Origin: a virus
Direction: 5' to 3' (one strand)
Virus record (IMG/VR): IMGVR_UViG_3300019124_000041
Location: 1 to 47,182 of that record
Length of the DNA stretch: 47,182 nt
Shown here: piece by piece, positions 763 to 18,875 of the stretch
How positions within the stretch are numbered: position 1 is the first letter of the stretch
How the letters are laid out: each line of letters begins with the position of its first letter
Made by a program: the position numbers and the translations under genes
Notes under the pieces: model-generated
Seen by the model: only the letters and a program-made list of their open reading frames with translations
What the model was told of the DNA's origin: nothing
Database searches by the model: none

Positions 763-1437
763 TTATTGCCTCGGCGCCCGCCACCCGGCCGCCTTGGCTT
801 CCTCTTCAGTACAGAACCAACGTTCGCCATCGGCCTCGTTGATGGTTGTCTTAGCGTAATCCTTGCTGTCCGGCAGGTGATAGATCTTGCCTGAGCTTGA
901 GATATTCCCCTTGATCGGGCATTTCCGGTCCGATCCTGTTGATGCCTCGGACGGCAACCGCTCACCCCGCCTCCATTCCCACGGAGCGGCGAACTTACCG
1001 GCCCACAGGCCGCGCTTTGCCCTACGGGCCTCGGCCTCCTCGTCAGCATAGCGGCCATCGGAGTATTGCTTGTATTCGAGCGCCCATCCCTGGCGGACCA
1101 GCTCCGCATTGAGCTCCTGCCCGTTAGCCGAGCAGACCGCGACGATGCGGCCATAGCGGTCGCGATCCTCCTCCTTGCAGGTCACGCGGCCGTTCCTGCC
1201 GATCAGGGCACTGAGCGCATCCGCCGCCTTTGAGCCGCAGAGGTAGCGCTTGCCCGAGGCATCCTCACAGGGTTGCTGGCTCTCAGGCGCATCGACGCCA
1301 TAGAGGCGAATGCGGGAGGATGCTCCTTGGATGGCAAGGGTATCGCCATCGACCACCTCGGCACGGCCAGAGAGCGTTTCAGCGGCGGCGGCGGACGAAA
1401 GGAGGAGAAGACAGAGGCAGGCAAGGCGGCGTTTCAT
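763..1437 (-). CDS. Secreted thermonuclease-like (SNase fold) nuclease
   Basis: 224 residues from the ATG at 1437, chosen because it begins a typical signal peptide (MKRRLACLCLLLLSSAAAAE). The SNase core follows: VVDGDTL, then RLYGVDAPES (active-site Arg and Asp), then a KEEDRDRYGR segment with the catalytic Glu and second Arg, then a QGWALEY motif. The C-terminal 60 residues form a separate Cys-containing tail ending near a W-F-C-T-E-E-E-A motif seen in host excalibur/SNase proteins. It likely cleaves DNA or RNA in the periplasm or outside the cell. A phage-carried cargo gene is likely; it sits beyond the lysis cassette rather than in an essential module. Confidence 0.85.
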   Translation of the reverse strand: MKRRLACLCLLLLSSAAAAETLSGRAEVVDGDTLAIQGASSRIRLYGVDAPESQQPCEDASGKRYLCGSKAADALSALIGRNGRVTCKEEDRDRYGRIVAVCSANGQELNAELVRQGWALEYKQYSDGRYADEEAEARRAKRGLWAGKFAAPWEWRRGERLPSEASTGSDRKCPIKGNISSSGKIYHLPDSKDYAKTTINEADGERWFCTEEEAKAAGWRAPRQ

Positions 1438-1629
1438 GCCACCTACATACAAAACCCTGCCGCTTGGGAGCAAGGCGCGCGGGCCGGTCGCCCGGCACGG
1501 GAAGAATAGCTGGTGCTTTCACGGCTGGCTCATGACGCCAGCCGACCTCCCTACCCCGCCCCGGACTCGTCATCCGGGCCGCGCATTGAGACGCTACGCC
1601 TATATTGTTTCATCCGACACTGTAGGAAT

Positions 1630-1857
1630 TTACAGGCCCTGCGGGAACGGGAGGTTCGCAATGGCATGCCCGCGGGCGTCGTGGACGCTCACCTGCCAGC
1701 CCGTCCAGTCAACACCGGGCGGGGCGTCCTGCATCGTCCGCGTGGCATAGCTGAGAGCCTCGATTTTTGCCCGTAGCCTTGAGGAAAACCGCCGTCCTTC
1801 GCGGTCGATGATCAGGCTTGTGCCATCGGTCAGGTGGTAGAAGTAGCGGCGTCCCAT
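1630..1857 (-). CDS. DUF6894-like small protein
   Basis: 75 residues from the ATG at 1857. The N-terminus MGRRYFYHLTDGTSLIIDREG and the C-terminal W.GW.VSV.D..G motif match the DUF6894 pattern. These small proteins of unknown function are very common in Methylobacteriaceae and Bradyrhizobiaceae. No membrane segment or signal is visible. The longer reading to 1965 lacks any family similarity before MGRRYF, so the short start is preferred. It is useful mainly as a hint about the host group. Confidence 0.65.
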   Translation of the reverse strand: MGRRYFYHLTDGTSLIIDREGRRFSSRLRAKIEALSYATRTMQDAPPGVDWTGWQVSVHDARGHAIANLPFPQGL

Positions 1858-1917
1858 CGCCCAACTCCATGTCCCATTACGCCCCCGATGGAGACGGAAA
1901 CAGACCCTCATGTGACG

Positions 1918-1980
1918 AGTTTCACAGGGCCTAGGCATAAAGAGACTTACACTCGCTATCCTCATAGTTCACAGGCCTAG
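1918..1980 (+). repeat. Imperfect direct repeat upstream of the DUF6894 gene
   Basis: AGTTTCACAGGGCCTAGG at 1918-1935 and AGTTCACAGGCCTAG at 1966-1980 are the same sequence with small deletions, 48 bases apart. They lie in the gap between two minus-strand genes, where a promoter for the DUF6894 gene would be, and could be operator copies. The second copy touches the stop of the next gene. Confidence 0.4.
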
Positions 1981-2204
1981 CTGTGCATTTTCAGATGAAA
2001 GTGCTCGCGGCTCCCGGTCAGAAGCTCTGCCATGTCATCGATCCGGTCGATGATGGCTTGAGCAACGTGGTAGTCGGGCGAGCCCAGGGGGATCCGGGAT
2101 CGGGTGAGCCTGTGCCGGGCATCGCCAAGGGCTTTCAGAAGATCCGGACCTTCGATTTTTCGGAAGAGATCGATCGGCAATTCCTGTGAACGGCGGCGGC
2201 TCAT
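1977..2204 (-). CDS. Small hypothetical phage protein
   Basis: 75 residues, starting MSRRRSQELPIDLF. The start at 2204 is supported by a GGGAG ribosome-binding site a few bases upstream; an in-frame start at 2258 would add 18 residues without such a site. The protein is helical, soluble and has no recognisable domain. It is the last gene of the leftward lysis cluster. Function unknown. Confidence 0.5.
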   Translation of the reverse strand: MSRRRSQELPIDLFRKIEGPDLLKALGDARHRLTRSRIPLGSPDYHVAQAIIDRIDDMAELLTGSREHFHLKMHS

Positions 2205-2254
2205 GAGATGCTCCCAAATGAGAACATTTTGAGAACATAGGCATGCCGCGGGAG

Positions 2255-2602
2255 TCAAGATCGCTGCTTGAGTAGATGGACGAGCTCTTGGAATTCCCGG
2301 CGCACTGCTGTCATCTCGTCGAGGGCCCGTTCGATCTGATGCCGCCTCGCCTGGTCGTCCCTCTCCTCCCGCATGATGGCAACAGCCTTGCGCACGGCGT
2401 CGGCGAGGCCCTCGATGGCGGCTGCCATCTGAATGCCAGCGTCCTTGTCCGTGATAGCTGCTACGACGCCGAGCGGTGCGGATTGGACGGCCTTGTCCAC
2501 CTCCCGAGCCCTCTGGCGCTCAGCCGCCCGGTACATGAAGATGGCGCCGATAGCCGGCAGAAGAACCCCAAGGAAGGGGGCAACGTCCTTCATCTCAAGC
2601 AC
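2255..2602 (-). CDS. Small membrane-anchored coiled-coil protein (possible spanin or holin partner)
   Basis: 115 residues. One hydrophobic segment near the N-terminus (about 8-23, APFLGVLLPAIGAIFMY) is followed by a long charged helix rich in Glu, Arg and Gln, so it is likely anchored in the inner membrane with a coiled coil. It overlaps the upstream membrane protein by 8 bases and lies downstream of the holin-like and endolysin genes. Position and shape would fit an i-spanin-like lysis protein, but no lipoprotein partner (o-spanin) is seen beside it, so this is only a suggestion. Confidence 0.6.
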   Translation of the reverse strand: MLEMKDVAPFLGVLLPAIGAIFMYRAAERQRAREVDKAVQSAPLGVVAAITDKDAGIQMAAAIEGLADAVRKAVAIMREERDDQARRHQIERALDEMTAVRREFQELVHLLKQRS

Positions 2603-3062: not shown

Positions 3063-3410
3063 TCACGCCCCAAGCGGCTTCCGGGCTTTCCAGCGGCCGT
3101 AGAGCGTGCCGAGACCGCCGCCGATGCTGCTCAGTGGCGGGCCATAGGTCTCAAGCGACAGCGGCACCCCGTTGGCCAGCATCGTGCCGATGGAGGCCAC
3201 CCCGCCGAGGATCGCGAAGATGGCGCCCCACGTGACGCGGCTGCGATACCATGGCTCGTTGTTCGTCAGATGCTCGATGACCGGCTGCAGCTCCTTGGCG
3301 ACCGTTGCCTTCACCACGGGCTTCTCAGTAGCTTCAACCGGCATGGAGGGCGATTGCACGAGCCGGTCTGCGATGCGGCTGGCGATGTCGAGAACAATCA
3401 GCGGGTTCAT
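3063..3410 (-). CDS. Holin-like phage membrane protein
   Basis: 115 residues. The C-terminal half has the layout R.SRVTWGAIFAILGGVASIG, a short loop, then YGPPLSSIGGGLGTLYGRWKARKP: two hydrophobic stretches with a basic tail. This is typical of small holins encoded next to GH108 endolysins in alphaproteobacterial phages. The start overlaps the endolysin stop by 4 bases (ATGA), which indicates translational coupling. The predicted role is to permeabilise the inner membrane so that the endolysin reaches the wall. The holin assignment rests on topology and context. Confidence 0.7.
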   Translation of the reverse strand: MNPLIVLDIASRIADRLVQSPSMPVEATEKPVVKATVAKELQPVIEHLTNNEPWYRSRVTWGAIFAILGGVASIGTMLANGVPLSLETYGPPLSSIGGGLGTLYGRWKARKPLGA

Positions 3411-4048
3411 GCGAAGATCCTTTTCAGCAGGTCAGCGAGGGCACTAAAAAACCCGCCGTTGCTGGCGGGCTGAGAGACGGGAACCGATGTCGGCTCGATA
3501 TCGGGAGGTGGCGGGAGCGGTCGCGCCGGTGTTGTCGCCGCCATTGCAAGGGCTTCCTTGCGAACGCCCTCAACCCGCATCGTCCAGCCCTTGCCGAACG
3601 CCTTCCACGTCGGGAGACCTTTGAGAAATTCGAGCCGGTCGTCACACATGCGATTGATGACGACAGCAGCGGGCAGATCGCGAGCGGCCTTCAGCGTCAG
3701 AGGGCCGATCACGCCGTCAGTCGTCACGCTGCAGGCCCGCTGGAGCCACTTGATGGCGCGGCCCGGCCCTGAGTTCACGGCAGCATCGAACACGCAATAG
3801 TCCACACCTGCCGGAAGATCGTCGCCCTTCACCTTGTCCCAATACTTCCGGCGATAGATCGGGGCCACGGCTGGCACCGTCAGAGACTTGACCTCTGCCC
3901 TTGTGGCAGGCCTGCCGAGCCAATCCGATAGGGTGCCGATTGTAACCCCTAGGTTCGTAGGTCCGCCCGGGTCGGCTGGGTGATCAACGTAGCCGCCTTC
4001 GTGGCGCAGGACGAGCGAAAGAGCCCGCCCGAATGTCTCGGTGGTCAT
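3407..4048 (-). CDS. Endolysin: GH108 muramidase with C-terminal peptidoglycan-binding domain
   Basis: 213 residues. The N-terminus has the GH108 signature RHEGGYVDHPADPGGPTN, in which Glu17 is the expected catalytic residue. A PG_binding_3-type domain follows (AVNSGPGRAIKWLQR, then DGVIGP). The Pro-rich linker and C-terminal LADLLKRIFA helix may help membrane contact. It cleaves the glycan backbone at lysis. The start at 4048 is preferred over 4063 because GGAG lies 9 bases before it, while the 4063 ATG sits against the T-tract of the upstream terminator. There is no signal peptide, so release would need the holin. Confidence 0.9.
   Translation of the reverse strand: MTTETFGRALSLVLRHEGGYVDHPADPGGPTNLGVTIGTLSDWLGRPATRAEVKSLTVPAVAPIYRRKYWDKVKGDDLPAGVDYCVFDAAVNSGPGRAIKWLQRACSVTTDGVIGPLTLKAARDLPAAVVINRMCDDRLEFLKGLPTWKAFGKGWTMRVEGVRKEALAMAATTPARPLPPPPDIEPTSVPVSQPASNGGFFSALADLLKRIFA
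3446..3469 (-). terminator. Intrinsic-terminator-like hairpin inside the endolysin coding sequence
   Basis: Reading the minus strand, CCCGCC, a 6-base loop, GGCGGG and then six T form a textbook terminator. It lies within codons for the Ser-Asn-Gly-Gly-Phe-Phe stretch, about 13 codons before the endolysin stop. If active, many transcripts would end before the endolysin stop codon and before the downstream holin gene. Confidence 0.55.
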
Positions 4049-14284: not shown

Positions 14285-16084
14285 CTAGCGTGGTCCTGCT
14301 TTGATGTGCGGCATGGAGGTGCCGGCCTCGGCTCGGATATGTCCGTTCGAAGTGGCGTCCATACCGATTACGCGACCGGGACCTTCCACCTGCACCCGGA
14401 CATTGACCGTAGCCTGCCCTTGGAGGTCGACCTTGCCAGTTACGTCGACCGGCTGTGTTGGCGACGCCACTCCCCGCGCGGCGCTGTCGTCGCCTGCCCA
14501 GGGATAGGTTGGGCGGCTCCCCGACATTCGGCCCTGCTCCGCACGGCGCATGACTTCAAGATCATGATCGGCGAAGAACAATCGGCGCTCAGTGTCGCGC
14601 AAGCCAAAGCCACCGCTCACGCGCTGGCTGTCAGCCCGCTCCTGCAAATCGATGGCAGTGCGCTGTGCCCGGGCCAACTCGCGCTGCCGTTCCTCTATTG
14701 CTGCCCGCCGCCCTTCCTCCTCCGCCGCGTTGCTGGAAGAGGGGACGATTGCCTCATATGCCTGCTTGAACAGGCCCTGGTAAAAGTCTGCGGATTCTTT
14801 GAGGCGCTGTTCTTCTTCGGCAACATATGGAGACTGTTCCGTGCCGTAACGCTCCAGGTTGTAGGCGCGATTGCGGGCCTGAATCTTCTGGAAGATGTTT
14901 TCGTTCTTCTCCGTCGCGTCAACGAACTGGTTGATCGCTTCAGCAATATTGCCCCCGGCGATCTTGAAGCCGTTGCCCGCCTTGATCATCAGGACGTCAA
15001 TAGCCTTTGCGGCCTTCTCAATGCGACCGACATCGCTGTCGATTGAGGTAGCGAAGTTACTGCTGACCGAGCCGACATATTTACTCTTGTCGCCTACCAG
15101 CCCTAGCGCCTTCTGTAAGCCGCCGAGGTTGCCGGTGAGGATCGCAATGTTATCGGCGTATTCCTTGCCGAACAGGTCGGTCAGCACCTGGGTGCGTTTG
15201 ATCGGATCGGTGATCTTCCCGATCCGCTCCAGCAGCTTGACTGTCGTTTCTAGAGGTTTTTTGGCGAATTCCTTCTGCACCTTGGCCGCGTTGAGCCCTA
15301 GCGCCTTGAACCCTTCTTTACTGCTGTCGAGAAAATCATCTCCAAGCGCCAGCGCCGTCATCAGCGTGTTGAAGGTGTTGGCCGCAACTTCATTTCCGAC
15401 ACCGACCTCCTTCTGCGCAGCTCCGAACGCAATGACCTGCTCCGCCGTGATACCGACCTGCTTGCCGACAGCGCCAGAGCGGCGCAGGAACTCAATCAGG
15501 TCTTTCTCGCCAGCGGCGGCATTGTCGGCCACGTAATTGACTGCGTCGCCAATCTCCTCAAGCCTCGACTGGCTCGCCGAATAAATGTTGCCGATTTCCG
15601 CCAGAGCCTGACCTGTCTCTTCGGCATTGGTGCCCCAGGCGCTAGTGGCCTTGGCGGCGAAGGCAGTATAACGGGCCAAGTCCTGCACTGGGCGACCGGC
15701 GAAGGCCGCCGCCGCCATGATGCCACCAATCTCCTCTTGGGTCTTGCCGGTCTCGCGCGACAGATCGAGGATGGTTTTCTCGTAGGCCTTCAGTTCCTCG
15801 CCTGAAGCATTTGTGGCCTTTTGCACCTGGATCATAGTGCGCTCGAACGACAGCGCCTCACTGGCGAGCGTCTTGACACCGTAGCCGACAGTCGCGGGGG
15901 CAATAATCGGAGCCAGCGCCCGCGCGGAAGCGGCCAGCATGCCATTGCTGGTAGCCATGGAGCTATTCATCGTGCGGGCGTGCTGACTCAGCGTCCGCAT
16001 CTTGCTGGCGATCTGCTGGAAAACTCGGCCGGTTTTGTCGTGCGCAGTGATCAGCGCCCGCGCTTCGATGGTCCGGGTACTCAT
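14285..16084 (-). CDS. Tail tape measure protein (TP901 type)
   Basis: 599 residues. The N-terminus has ARALITAHDKTGRVFQ followed by the TP901 core: FERTMIQVQKATNASGEEL, LSRETGKTQEEIGGIMAAAA, then FLRRSGAVGKQVGITAEQVIAFGAA. Hydrophobic segments in the middle and a long charged helix (about 405-510) precede a Gly/Pro-rich C-terminus. It sets tail length and is ejected with DNA. Its start overlaps the stop of the frameshifted chaperone extension (16081) by 4 bases. At about 600 residues it predicts a short contractile tail. Confidence 0.93.
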   Translation of the reverse strand: MSTRTIEARALITAHDKTGRVFQQIASKMRTLSQHARTMNSSMATSNGMLAASARALAPIIAPATVGYGVKTLASEALSFERTMIQVQKATNASGEELKAYEKTILDLSRETGKTQEEIGGIMAAAAFAGRPVQDLARYTAFAAKATSAWGTNAEETGQALAEIGNIYSASQSRLEEIGDAVNYVADNAAAGEKDLIEFLRRSGAVGKQVGITAEQVIAFGAAQKEVGVGNEVAANTFNTLMTALALGDDFLDSSKEGFKALGLNAAKVQKEFAKKPLETTVKLLERIGKITDPIKRTQVLTDLFGKEYADNIAILTGNLGGLQKALGLVGDKSKYVGSVSSNFATSIDSDVGRIEKAAKAIDVLMIKAGNGFKIAGGNIAEAINQFVDATEKNENIFQKIQARNRAYNLERYGTEQSPYVAEEEQRLKESADFYQGLFKQAYEAIVPSSSNAAEEEGRRAAIEERQRELARAQRTAIDLQERADSQRVSGGFGLRDTERRLFFADHDLEVMRRAEQGRMSGSRPTYPWAGDDSAARGVASPTQPVDVTGKVDLQGQATVNVRVQVEGPGRVIGMDATSNGHIRAEAGTSMPHIKAGPR

Positions 16085-16523
16085 TGCAGCCGTCTCTTGA
16101 AGGGATGCTTGGGATTTTTCCAGGCCTCGACCGCTCGGTCATACCACCAAGCAATCTGAGAAAAGGTCATGGCGCCGACGGTGCCGGCGTCGAATCCGAA
16201 GACGAGGACGAGGTCTTCAGCGCGTCCGGAGATGTCTCCGGCTCGCGAAAAAAATCGAGGATCGCCCTCACTATTTTCTGGGTGTCGCGCACGTTGAGCT
16301 GGCCGAGCAGGGTCGGATCCCACGGCTTCTCCACTAGGCGCTCCACGTAGCCTTGGATTGCCTCGTAGTTGACGTCGCGTACCACGACGCCGCCTGGCAT
16401 CACGCCCGAGGCGATTGGCTCGCCGAGAGCCATGATATCGTTGAATACCGGCTCCCGAAAGCTGACCGTGTCAGCTGGCCCCGCGTGAAGAATATAGGAC
16501 TTGCTGAGCTTGACTGACTTCAT
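16081..16523 (-). CDS. Frameshifted long form of the tail assembly chaperone (gp41 fused to downstream frame)
   Basis: If ribosomes slip -1 at the T7 run (16254-16248), the gp41-like protein keeps its first 92 residues and continues with 55 residues of the neighbouring frame (SRAGDISG, then AMTFSQIAWWYDRAVEAW), giving 147 residues. The downstream frame has no good start of its own before MTFSQ. Short and long chaperone forms made this way are known for most long-tailed phages, including Mu-like ones; they bind the tape measure. The frame arithmetic fits a -1 shift exactly. Confidence 0.75.
16167..16523 (-). CDS. Tail assembly chaperone, short form (Mu gp41-like)
   Basis: 118 residues. It has a small N-terminal beta region (LSKSYILHAGPADTVSFREP), a VVRDVNYEAIQGYVERL helix and a RDTQKIVRAILDFF helix, followed by a disordered Ser/Pro tail. 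This is the Mu gp41 / tail assembly protein E slot, between the tube and tape measure genes. The low-complexity tail after the slippery site is typical of the unshifted product. It is a non-structural chaperone of the tape measure. Confidence 0.82.
   Translation of the reverse strand: MKSVKLSKSYILHAGPADTVSFREPVFNDIMALGEPIASGVMPGGVVVRDVNYEAIQGYVERLVEKPWDPTLLGQLNVRDTQKIVRAILDFFREPETSPDALKTSSSSSDSTPAPSAP
16248..16254 (-). promoter_or_regulatory. Slippery heptamer T TTT TTT for programmed -1 frameshifting
   Basis: On the minus strand the zero-frame codons read GAT TTT TTT CGC. The last T of GAT plus the two TTT codons form the X XXY YYZ-type heptamer T TTT TTT, placed 92 codons into the chaperone gene. 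The -1 frame is open for 55 codons to a TGA at the start of the tape measure gene. Confidence 0.75.
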
Positions 16524-16566: not shown

Positions 16567-16923
16567 GTGACGTTGGAAATTGCTCTGTTCTGGCTGGCGC
16601 TGTCGGTGGTCGTGGGCGTGGCCGCCAGCTCAAAAGGCCGATCGGGCGTGGGATGGTTTCTGCTCGCCGCGATCGTGTCACCTCTCATTGCCGGACTACT
16701 GATTCTCGCTCTGCCGAGCCGGAAGCCCCCGACGCCTCAGCCGGTCACGATAGTCCCGGCCGCCCAGGCCACTTCCTCAGATCTGAAGAAGTGCCCGGAC
16801 TGCGCCGAGATCGTGCAGGCCGATGCCCGGATCTGTCGGTTCTGCCGACACGAATTTCAGGTCCCGCCAGCCAAAGGGGGCTGGAAAGAACCAGACCCCA
16901 CGTTCCGGCTGCCGCCCGTTTAG
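16567..16923 (+). CDS. Membrane-anchored zinc-ribbon protein, opposite strand to the tail operon
   Basis: 118 residues. Two hydrophobic segments (about 4-20 and 28-48) precede a zinc ribbon: K-C-P-D-C at about 76 and I-C-R-F-C at about 90 (CxxC, 12 residues, CxxC). The start is uncertain: GTG at 16567 gives the full first segment, TTG at 16573 is an alternative. The gene points against the tail operon and its stop overlaps the tube gene stop, so it is a likely moron with its own promoter. Small zinc-ribbon/TM proteins of this form are common in host genomes; function unknown. Confidence 0.6.
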   Translation: MTLEIALFWLALSVVVGVAASSKGRSGVGWFLLAAIVSPLIAGLLILALPSRKPPTPQPVTIVPAAQATSSDLKKCPDCAEIVQADARICRFCRHEFQVPPAKGGWKEPDPTFRLPPV

Positions 16924-17291
16924 CTTCGCAGCGCCTGATAGCTGGCGGTCTGGACGCTAATGCCCGAGACCTCGCCGGTAGCCGTATTGATTGCTGCCCC
17001 CTCGCCCGCGAAGCTGGCCCGGGTGAACAGGTGCGTCACGCCAACATCATCCTCGGCGAAGGTGACGTTGATCTCCTCCAGCAGCATGGCCTCGTCCCAG
17101 GCAAGATCGATGCCGCGGTCGAACGTGAGCTCGAGCGAGGCAAGTTTCGGCGCGATGGTGCGATAGGCGGTACCGTCCTGGTTGGCGGCGGCACTGATCG
17201 ACACCCGGCTGGGGTTGATGGTGGCTTCGCCGCGTCCGGAATATGTGCGACCGTTGATTTCGAGGGAAAAGCGACCGCCTTTGGTATCCAT
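16920..17291 (-). CDS. Tail tube protein (Mu gpM-like)
   Basis: 123 residues, predicted beta-rich. The start GGRFSLEINGRTYSGRGEATI and the L.LTFDRGIDLAWDEAMLLEEINVTF strand-helix follow the Mu tube family, which ends in a short helix. It forms the rigid tube inside the sheath. It lies directly after the sheath gene with a terminator-like hairpin between the two, so its mRNA level may differ from that of the sheath. Confidence 0.87.
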   Translation of the reverse strand: MDTKGGRFSLEINGRTYSGRGEATINPSRVSISAAANQDGTAYRTIAPKLASLELTFDRGIDLAWDEAMLLEEINVTFAEDDVGVTHLFTRASFAGEGAAINTATGEVSGISVQTASYQALRS

Positions 17292-17320: not shown

Positions 17321-17348
17321 AAAAAGGCGGCGCTTATTGCAGCGCCGC
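17321..17348 (-). terminator. Intrinsic terminator between tail sheath and tail tube genes
   Basis: On the minus strand GCGGCGCT, loop GCAATA, AGCGCCGC is a perfect 8-bp stem that spans the sheath stop codon, followed by CTTTTT. It would attenuate or end late transcription after the sheath gene. As tube, tape measure and baseplate genes all lie downstream, an antiterminator or a second promoter would be needed for full expression. Confidence 0.75.
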
Positions 17349-18875
17349 GATGCTTTCGTTGAGTTCGGGGAAGATCGTGATGTTGGCGGCGAACACCCGG
17401 AACTGATTGGCGACATCAACCGGCAGATAGGCGTTCACCCGGTTCGGATCGCCCGAACGCTCGACAATGAGGTACTGTGCGAACAGCTCCGGCTTCTCCA
17501 CCAAGCCCGCCTCGAACAACTCGCGGTAGGCATGGATGAGCGCCGCGCGGATCTGCTTAGGCGTCACGATGCCCTGCACGTTGCGCGGGTTGTCGTCCTT
17601 GAGAACGTGCCGCGGGTACAGCGACGTGATCCGGGTCTTGAGATAGCGCTTGACGTAGGCCGCGATCGCGAGGGTTTCGACATCGAGGAAGGTGATATCC
17701 GGCTGACCCCAATCGTTACTGCGATAGGTTGTGACCATGCGATCGATAGCCACCCGACCGTCGGCGCGAACCACGTCGGCTGCGATGCCATTGCGGTAAA
17801 GGGAATCCCGGTCTGCCACCGCCCAGCGATCCGAGCTGGCCTTTGGCGGACGGATACCCTGCTTGACCAGGGTGTGCAGCGGCCGGGCGATCTCAACCGC
17901 CTCCGAGATGGAGCGCCCGAGATTCTTCGAGAATGCCGTAATCGCCCCATCGATCGCCGCATGCAGCCACGGCGTATTGGGCGAGTTCAGCGCCCCCTTG
18001 ATCGTCACGTGCCGGTCGTTGCGGCCAGCGCCGAAGCTGGTGAGTGTCGATAGGTTGCCGTTGAGGTAAGTGATATAATGGCCATCGAGACCCACAGTCG
18101 GCGACCAACGCCCGGACCCGGAGTCGGACAGGAAGCTCTGCACCGCATTGAGATGGGCGGTCGAGGCATACGGTCCGGCGATCCAATCGAACGGCTCTGC
18201 CCCGAGCGATGCCAAGGCCGTGGCCATGTCAATGTCCCCAGAGCCGCCGGTCAGTGTGGCGGATGCAATGGTGACGGTGAGCCCGGCCGGATCCACCTCG
18301 TCGCCGTCAAGACCGGCCTCTACGCGAATGGCATTGCCTTCGGTTCCAGCGTGGCGCGCAGTGAGCGTGACCGTGCCTGTGGACGCCGACGCCGTAACCG
18401 GATGCGACATGGCGCGGCCGTACTTCGTGAACCCACGGCCGATCGCAGCCACCAAGTTCGTGGCCACAACAGCGGCCGTGTCGCCAATCGCGACGGGAGC
18501 GGACACCCGCTCCCCGGCGATATAGCGCACCAGCGTTCCGGCCGCAGTAGCGGTCCCGGTGATGGCGATCGTGCCGGTCGCAGCGACAGCTCCAGCGGGA
18601 TCAGTCACCGGCAGCACCCAGATTTCGCCGACTGGATTGTGCCAGCGGGCCGCGATTGCCATGTCGGCCAGCATGGAGCCTGCACCGAACAGGGTTGTGG
18701 GATCAGACGAGCCGAGATTGCGGGCTGTCATCGGCGTGGCGGACCCGCCCGCCAGCTTGCGGCCGATCAAAAGCAGTCGCGAGGTGCCTGAATAGGGCGG
18801 CACGCCCGCATTGACCTCGGCATAGAACAGGGGGACCCGGATATCGCCGGGCATGTTGTTGAAGGCGACACTCAC
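17334..18875 (-). CDS. Contractile tail sheath protein (Mu gpL-like)
   Basis: 513 residues. The N-terminal VAFNNMPGDIRVPLFYAEVN and the SRLLLIGRK strand begin the Mu-type sheath; the FGAGSMLADMAIAARWHNP motif and the C-terminal domain with DVETLAIAAYVKRYLKTRITSLYP are conserved in this family. It forms the contractile outer sheath, which makes the phage a myovirus. Next gene upstream is DUF2635, as in Mu. Confidence 0.95.
   Translation of the reverse strand: MSVAFNNMPGDIRVPLFYAEVNAGVPPYSGTSRLLLIGRKLAGGSATPMTARNLGSSDPTTLFGAGSMLADMAIAARWHNPVGEIWVLPVTDPAGAVAATGTIAITGTATAAGTLVRYIAGERVSAPVAIGDTAAVVATNLVAAIGRGFTKYGRAMSHPVTASASTGTVTLTARHAGTEGNAIRVEAGLDGDEVDPAGLTVTIASATLTGGSGDIDMATALASLGAEPFDWIAGPYASTAHLNAVQSFLSDSGSGRWSPTVGLDGHYITYLNGNLSTLTSFGAGRNDRHVTIKGALNSPNTPWLHAAIDGAITAFSKNLGRSISEAVEIARPLHTLVKQGIRPPKASSDRWAVADRDSLYRNGIAADVVRADGRVAIDRMVTTYRSNDWGQPDITFLDVETLAIAAYVKRYLKTRITSLYPRHVLKDDNPRNVQGIVTPKQIRAALIHAYRELFEAGLVEKPELFAQYLIVERSGDPNRVNAYLPVDVANQFRVFAANITIFPELNESIAALQ

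Follow-up and report, generated by a model that had tools for sequence, protein, structure and literature searches.

Slipping back to make a longer second protein is well known in tailed phages. Phage lambda produces two forms of its tail assembly chaperone, G and GT, by a -1 frameshift ahead of the tape measure gene (PMC5009743), as would the gene described here; the two are likened by description alone, lambda having a non-contractile tail and little or no sequence similarity being reported. The same two-frame arrangement has been described for P2-like phages (PMC3091744 and PMC3931495, which cite Christie 2002). The E/E+E' genes of P2 (FETUD operon) share with our gene the order sheath-tube-E-E'-T, a Phage_TAC_7 domain in frame 0 and a -1 extension whose end overlaps the start of the tape measure gene. 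They differ in the heptamer, which is T TTT TTG near the end of the 0 frame in P2 and ends in T, not G, in our gene; in the product sizes, 91/142 aa in P2 versus 118/147 aa here; in the Mu-type neighbour genes found here, unlike in P2; and in a hairpin predicted downstream of the heptamer, with no counterpart reported in P2 (PMC3091744). The P2 record carries an annotated E+E' product, with the -1 extension at TTTTTTG corresponding to PF06528. A scan for P2 E yielded nearly identical copies, among which just 8 heptamer contexts were distinct, too few for statistics.

Phage Mu gp41/FS-gp41 shares the TAC fold with our gene, which has Mu-like genes for DNA circularisation and for gp44-type baseplate proteins in its neighbourhood, but Mu uses a -2 shift (PMC5009743) and our gene a -1 shift; a -2 (or +1) fusion of the Mu type was ruled out here by the conserved domain, which sits in the -1 frame. 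In Pseudomonas Mu-like phages (PaMx73 and the D3112 group), the tail assembly genes are predicted to contain a -1 frameshift at T TTT TTC (PMC4378225), although these phages have siphophage tails, unlike ours, and are likened by published description alone. Gene 15 of Rhizobium phage vB_RleM_PPF1 is 39% identical over the aligned 0-frame protein and has the T7 heptamer and the -1 domain in the same slot, with a 0-frame tail of 12 codons. Its deposited annotation gives the short product only, the -1 product (3270-3413 of our locus L003) being unannotated.

The chaperone gene and its two predicted products

The window, meaning the whole stretch of 47,182 nucleotides that was analysed (IMG/VR record IMGVR_UViG_3300019124_000041), carries on its minus strand the following features:

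17334-18875, minus strand: tail sheath gene (phrog_165 tail sheath, E=3e-145)
16920-17291, minus strand: tail tube protein gene (PF10618, E=8e-14)
16167-16523, minus strand: 0-frame tail assembly chaperone gene of the P2 E / Phage_TAC_7 type (ORF, 118 aa)
16259-16274, minus strand: Shine-Dalgarno-like stretch with GAGGG, possible stimulator (anti-SD pairing)
16248-16254, minus strand: slippery heptamer T TTT TTT (sequence, phase, kept in relatives)
16221-16247, minus strand: predicted hairpin CGCG-AG-CCGGAG-ACAU-CUCCGG-A-CGCG, possible stimulator (fold z=-2.36)
16168-16170, minus strand: ATG overlapping the 0-frame TGA (ATGA), rival start for a 29-aa product (sequence)
16081-16248, minus strand: -1 extension, E'-like domain (55 open codons and TGA)
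14285-16084, minus strand: tape measure protein gene (PF10145, E=3e-32), its start overlapping the -1 stop

An earlier, sequence-only reading had proposed a frameshift at this place, without mentioning the minus strand, the downstream hairpin, the upstream Shine-Dalgarno-like stretch or the ATGA overlap start. Its claims about the reading frames hold. The T7 run (16254-16248) is read in frame 0 as GAT TTT TTT CGC, and with 16254 as the third base of codon 90 its phase is T_TTT_TTT. A -1 shift at this point opens 55 codons up to the TGA at 16083-16081, which overlaps the tape measure ATG at 16084, and the product sizes of 118 and 147 residues were recovered from the ORF at 16523-16167 and by recomputing the fusion. 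The run is the only one of seven A or T in the window, and shuffles of the window give a mean of 1.46 T7/A7 runs. Since about 1.5 such runs are expected by chance, the length of the run proves nothing by itself and the case for a frameshift rests on phase and conservation. TTT makes up 3 of the 33 Phe codons in the tail region of the window.

The gene occupies the standard slot for tail assembly chaperones, as had also been claimed and as the Pfam matches of the tube and tape measure genes confirm: the sheath and tube genes lie upstream, and the tape measure gene, a DNA-circularisation protein gene and a Mu gp44-type baseplate hub gene lie downstream, with one opposite-strand gene between tube and chaperone.

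Taken together with the conservation described below, these features make it very probable that a single start codon yields the tail assembly chaperone in two lengths, through a -1 slip at T_TTT_TTT. We infer that for most ribosomes translation would end at 16167 with the 118-aa form, while a smaller share, whose P- and A-site tRNAs sit on TTT TTT, would move back by one base and translate a further 55 codons, adding a small helical E'-like domain to give the 147-aa form. The roles in tail assembly are drawn from lambda G/GT and P2 E/E+E' (PMC5009743): on this analogy, the common part would coat the tape measure protein, the extra domain would recruit tail tube subunits, and neither form would be kept in the virion.

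Conservation of the heptamer and of the -1 domain

Relatives were gathered from viral contigs, bacterial genomes and phage records by the 0-frame protein only; one of the peptide search patterns contained Phe-Phe, without its codons. The confident set comprises 34 loci with E below 1e-9, the window included, and a further set comprises 24 loci from the order, some of them matching less strongly. These loci share ancestry, and the counts given here are not independent events. At the aligned Phe-Phe, 28 of the 34 confident loci have an in-phase T TTT TTT and the other 6 have T TTT TTC. TTT accounts for 25% of the Phe codons of the family loci, yet T TTT TTY occurs at none of their 17 other Phe-Phe pairs. 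In the further set, 18 of the 24 loci have T6T or T6C (T6C in 12 of these 18), five have GGGAAA(C/T), and one (L147) is unresolved; T6G is found in distant relatives and in P2. The earlier reading had named as its refutation related phages with both frames but no T run. The close relatives always have T6T or T6C; the T run is missing from some distant ones, but there a canonical G GGA AAC precedes the same kind of -1 domain. Four of these distant relatives (L138, L139, L140 and L143) read GGGAAACTGA, with G GGA AAC immediately before the 0-frame TGA, and in most of the five GGGAAA(C/T) loci the -1 frame after the heptamer carries the same kind of domain. As judged from these alignments, such a swap supports programmed -1 ribosomal frameshifting and does not refute it.

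The -1 peptides could be aligned over 31 loci, with the core ADxLVFRxGWxxxxVxxMTxxEIxxWxxRA; one locus (L006) has no recognisable -1 domain. In 13 pairs, aligned on their -1 peptides, differences 3' of the heptamer number 178/158/236 at -1 positions 1/2/3, and those in the 0 frame 5' of the heptamer number 209/147/347 at positions 1/2/3. Because the downstream differences follow the codon phase of the -1 frame, we read this region as protein. An ungapped comparison of 58 overlapping pairs shows the same shift: 0-frame position 3 varies most before the heptamer and position 2 after it. The AlphaFold2 model of the -1 extension is helical and confident (pLDDT 89.7), and its comparison with known structures returned only insignificant viral matches. 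The window's -1 peptide has no direct Pfam match, but 7 of the 31 family members match PF06528 weakly (best 0.0049), and hhalign of the -1 family with the P2 E' extension gives a weak E=1.3e-4 (probability 54%). The -1 domain thus appears to resemble P2 E' weakly but consistently.

The 0-frame protein of the window has no direct Pfam match either, so that family alignments were needed, and its membership is established via relatives, PHROGs and structure rather than by a Pfam match of its own. It matches phrog_24302 (E=3e-14) and phrog_166, a tail protein (E=6e-5), and PF10109 (Phage_TAC_7) is matched by 27 of the 32 aligned family members (best 1.5e-10) as well as by P2 E and Mu gp41 themselves. 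The AlphaFold2 model of the 0-frame domain (pLDDT 86.4, confident) is similar to Mu FS-gp41 and to the tape measure chaperone of a Burkholderia phage (Foldseek probability 1.0, E only about 0.01); among PDB structures Foldseek returned nothing meaningful. When the 0-frame family profile was compared with P2 E as a single sequence, the match was unconvincing (probability 6%), and the link to P2 E therefore rests on the shared Pfam family. By these sequence comparisons the window gene is a member of the P2 E/E+E' kind, which is well known. What it adds to the set of tail-chaperone frameshifts is a large, apparently mostly unannotated family of alphaproteobacterial phages and prophages, whose long protein annotators would otherwise miss, as in the PPF1 record.

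Other explanations for the two frames

The -1 region might be a separate small gene, translated by coupling at the ATG at 16170 into a 29-aa protein, with no fusion made. The ATGA overlap is indeed present in the window, and many relatives have an ATG, GTG or TTG about 84 nt past the heptamer start. The closest relative (L002, 59% identical), however, has CTG in place of the window's ATG, and both it and L037 are devoid of any start codon in the whole -1 ORF. Moreover, the conserved -1 core begins about 8 codons past the heptamer, ahead of the start codons that most relatives have, and a separate gene would leave the conserved heptamer unexplained. The -1 frame has a stop adjoining the 5' side of the heptamer in four loci (L019, L031, L035 and L036), and the 0 frame ends 0-2 codons past it in six others (L005, L020, L138, L139, L140 and L143); these flanking -1 stops and nearby 0-frame ends place the crossing point at the heptamer. 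We consider it quite improbable that the separate gene replaces the fusion, while a separate 29-aa product from the ATG at 16170 is possible in addition to it.

Transcriptional slippage, in which RNA polymerase would add a U in the T7 run, would give a fusion protein identical in sequence, as one inserted T leads to the same peptide, and a homopolymer of seven T is a plausible place for it. The variants speak against it: T6C stands in 6 of the 34 confident loci and, in the further set, in 12 of the 18 with a T run, T6G in distant loci and in P2, and G GGA AAC, before the same kind of -1 domain, contains no run on which the polymerase could slip. The X XXY YYZ rule covers heptamer variants that allow two tRNAs to re-pair. 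T6C, T6G and G GGA AAC all fit this rule, and ribosomal slippage is for this reason favoured over slippage of the polymerase, without being proven by such comparisons; we regard the latter as very improbable. The exchange of T TTT TTT, T TTT TTC and G GGA AAC under a constant -1 domain is good evidence for tRNA slippage.

Two further readings are refuted by the comparison of relatives and have a negligible probability: a sequencing error splitting one longer gene, for which the window's origin as a virus-database contig and the error-prone nature of T runs could speak, is contradicted by dozens of separate loci with the same two-frame layout, among them sequenced bacterial genomes and Rhizobium phage PPF1, and a chance T run with an accidentally open -1 frame, one T7/A7 run being expected in a window of such size, by the conservation of heptamer position, phase and downstream -1 domain across relatives about 25-60% identical.

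Candidate stimulators and neighbouring elements

Returning to -1 ribosomal slippage, no stimulator is universal across the family loci, and those named here are candidates that we infer from position and pairing. The predicted hairpin adjoins the heptamer on its 3' side, with the inner stem 6 nt downstream, and the fold z of -2.36 was obtained for the 80 nt past the heptamer in the window. The closest relative has a hairpin of different sequence at the same place. Across the family, the shuffle z of the downstream fold averages -0.92, but strong downstream structure is not general, with a mean GC-adjusted percentile of 0.38 and few strong loci; at this percentile, a family-wide downstream RNA structure was not upheld.

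Internal Shine-Dalgarno-like sequences are known frameshift stimulators elsewhere (PMC10885494). In the window, anti-SD pairing of the upstream stretch beats that of synonymous shuffles (p about 0.001), and over 32 loci pairing 5-20 nt 5' of the heptamer also exceeds the shuffles (mean z -0.95), the signal fading within five codons and being near zero elsewhere in the gene. In the further set, with 18 loci, this position ranks lowest of 27, although the signal is weaker (z -0.46). These data are suggestive of the Shine-Dalgarno-like stretch as a stimulator, the only new suggestion made here. That the family heptamer would be driven mainly by such an internal sequence 5-20 nt upstream, as in dnaX, and not by a conserved downstream structure, is a tentative proposal to which we give somewhat less than even chances; if true, it could explain P2-type tail frameshifts without a downstream hairpin.

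Directly 5' of the T7 run, a hairpin GAGG...CCTC (16270-16256, minus strand) scores as terminator-like. Similar 5' hairpins are found in L007-L009, L031, L035 and L036 and are absent from most relatives, and with such pairing missing in many of them the hairpin and T7 run were not taken as a functional terminator.

The opposite-strand gene between tube and chaperone (16567-16923, plus strand) encodes a protein whose N-terminus is hydrophobic and which carries a UPF0547 zinc ribbon (PF10571, E=1e-8); the gene resembles a moron inserted within the tail operon. The closest relative holds other cargo in the same slot (1108-2400), namely an ORF at 1108-1824 (plus strand) that looks Rha-like by eye and an exported-looking protein on the opposite strand (1888-2400, minus strand). 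The differing cargo of the two suggests that the slot between tube and chaperone may be a cargo hotspot. Finally, a strong terminator-like hairpin with T5 (17348-17327, minus strand) lies where the sheath gene ends, ahead of the tube gene, and is a possible attenuator within the tail operon.
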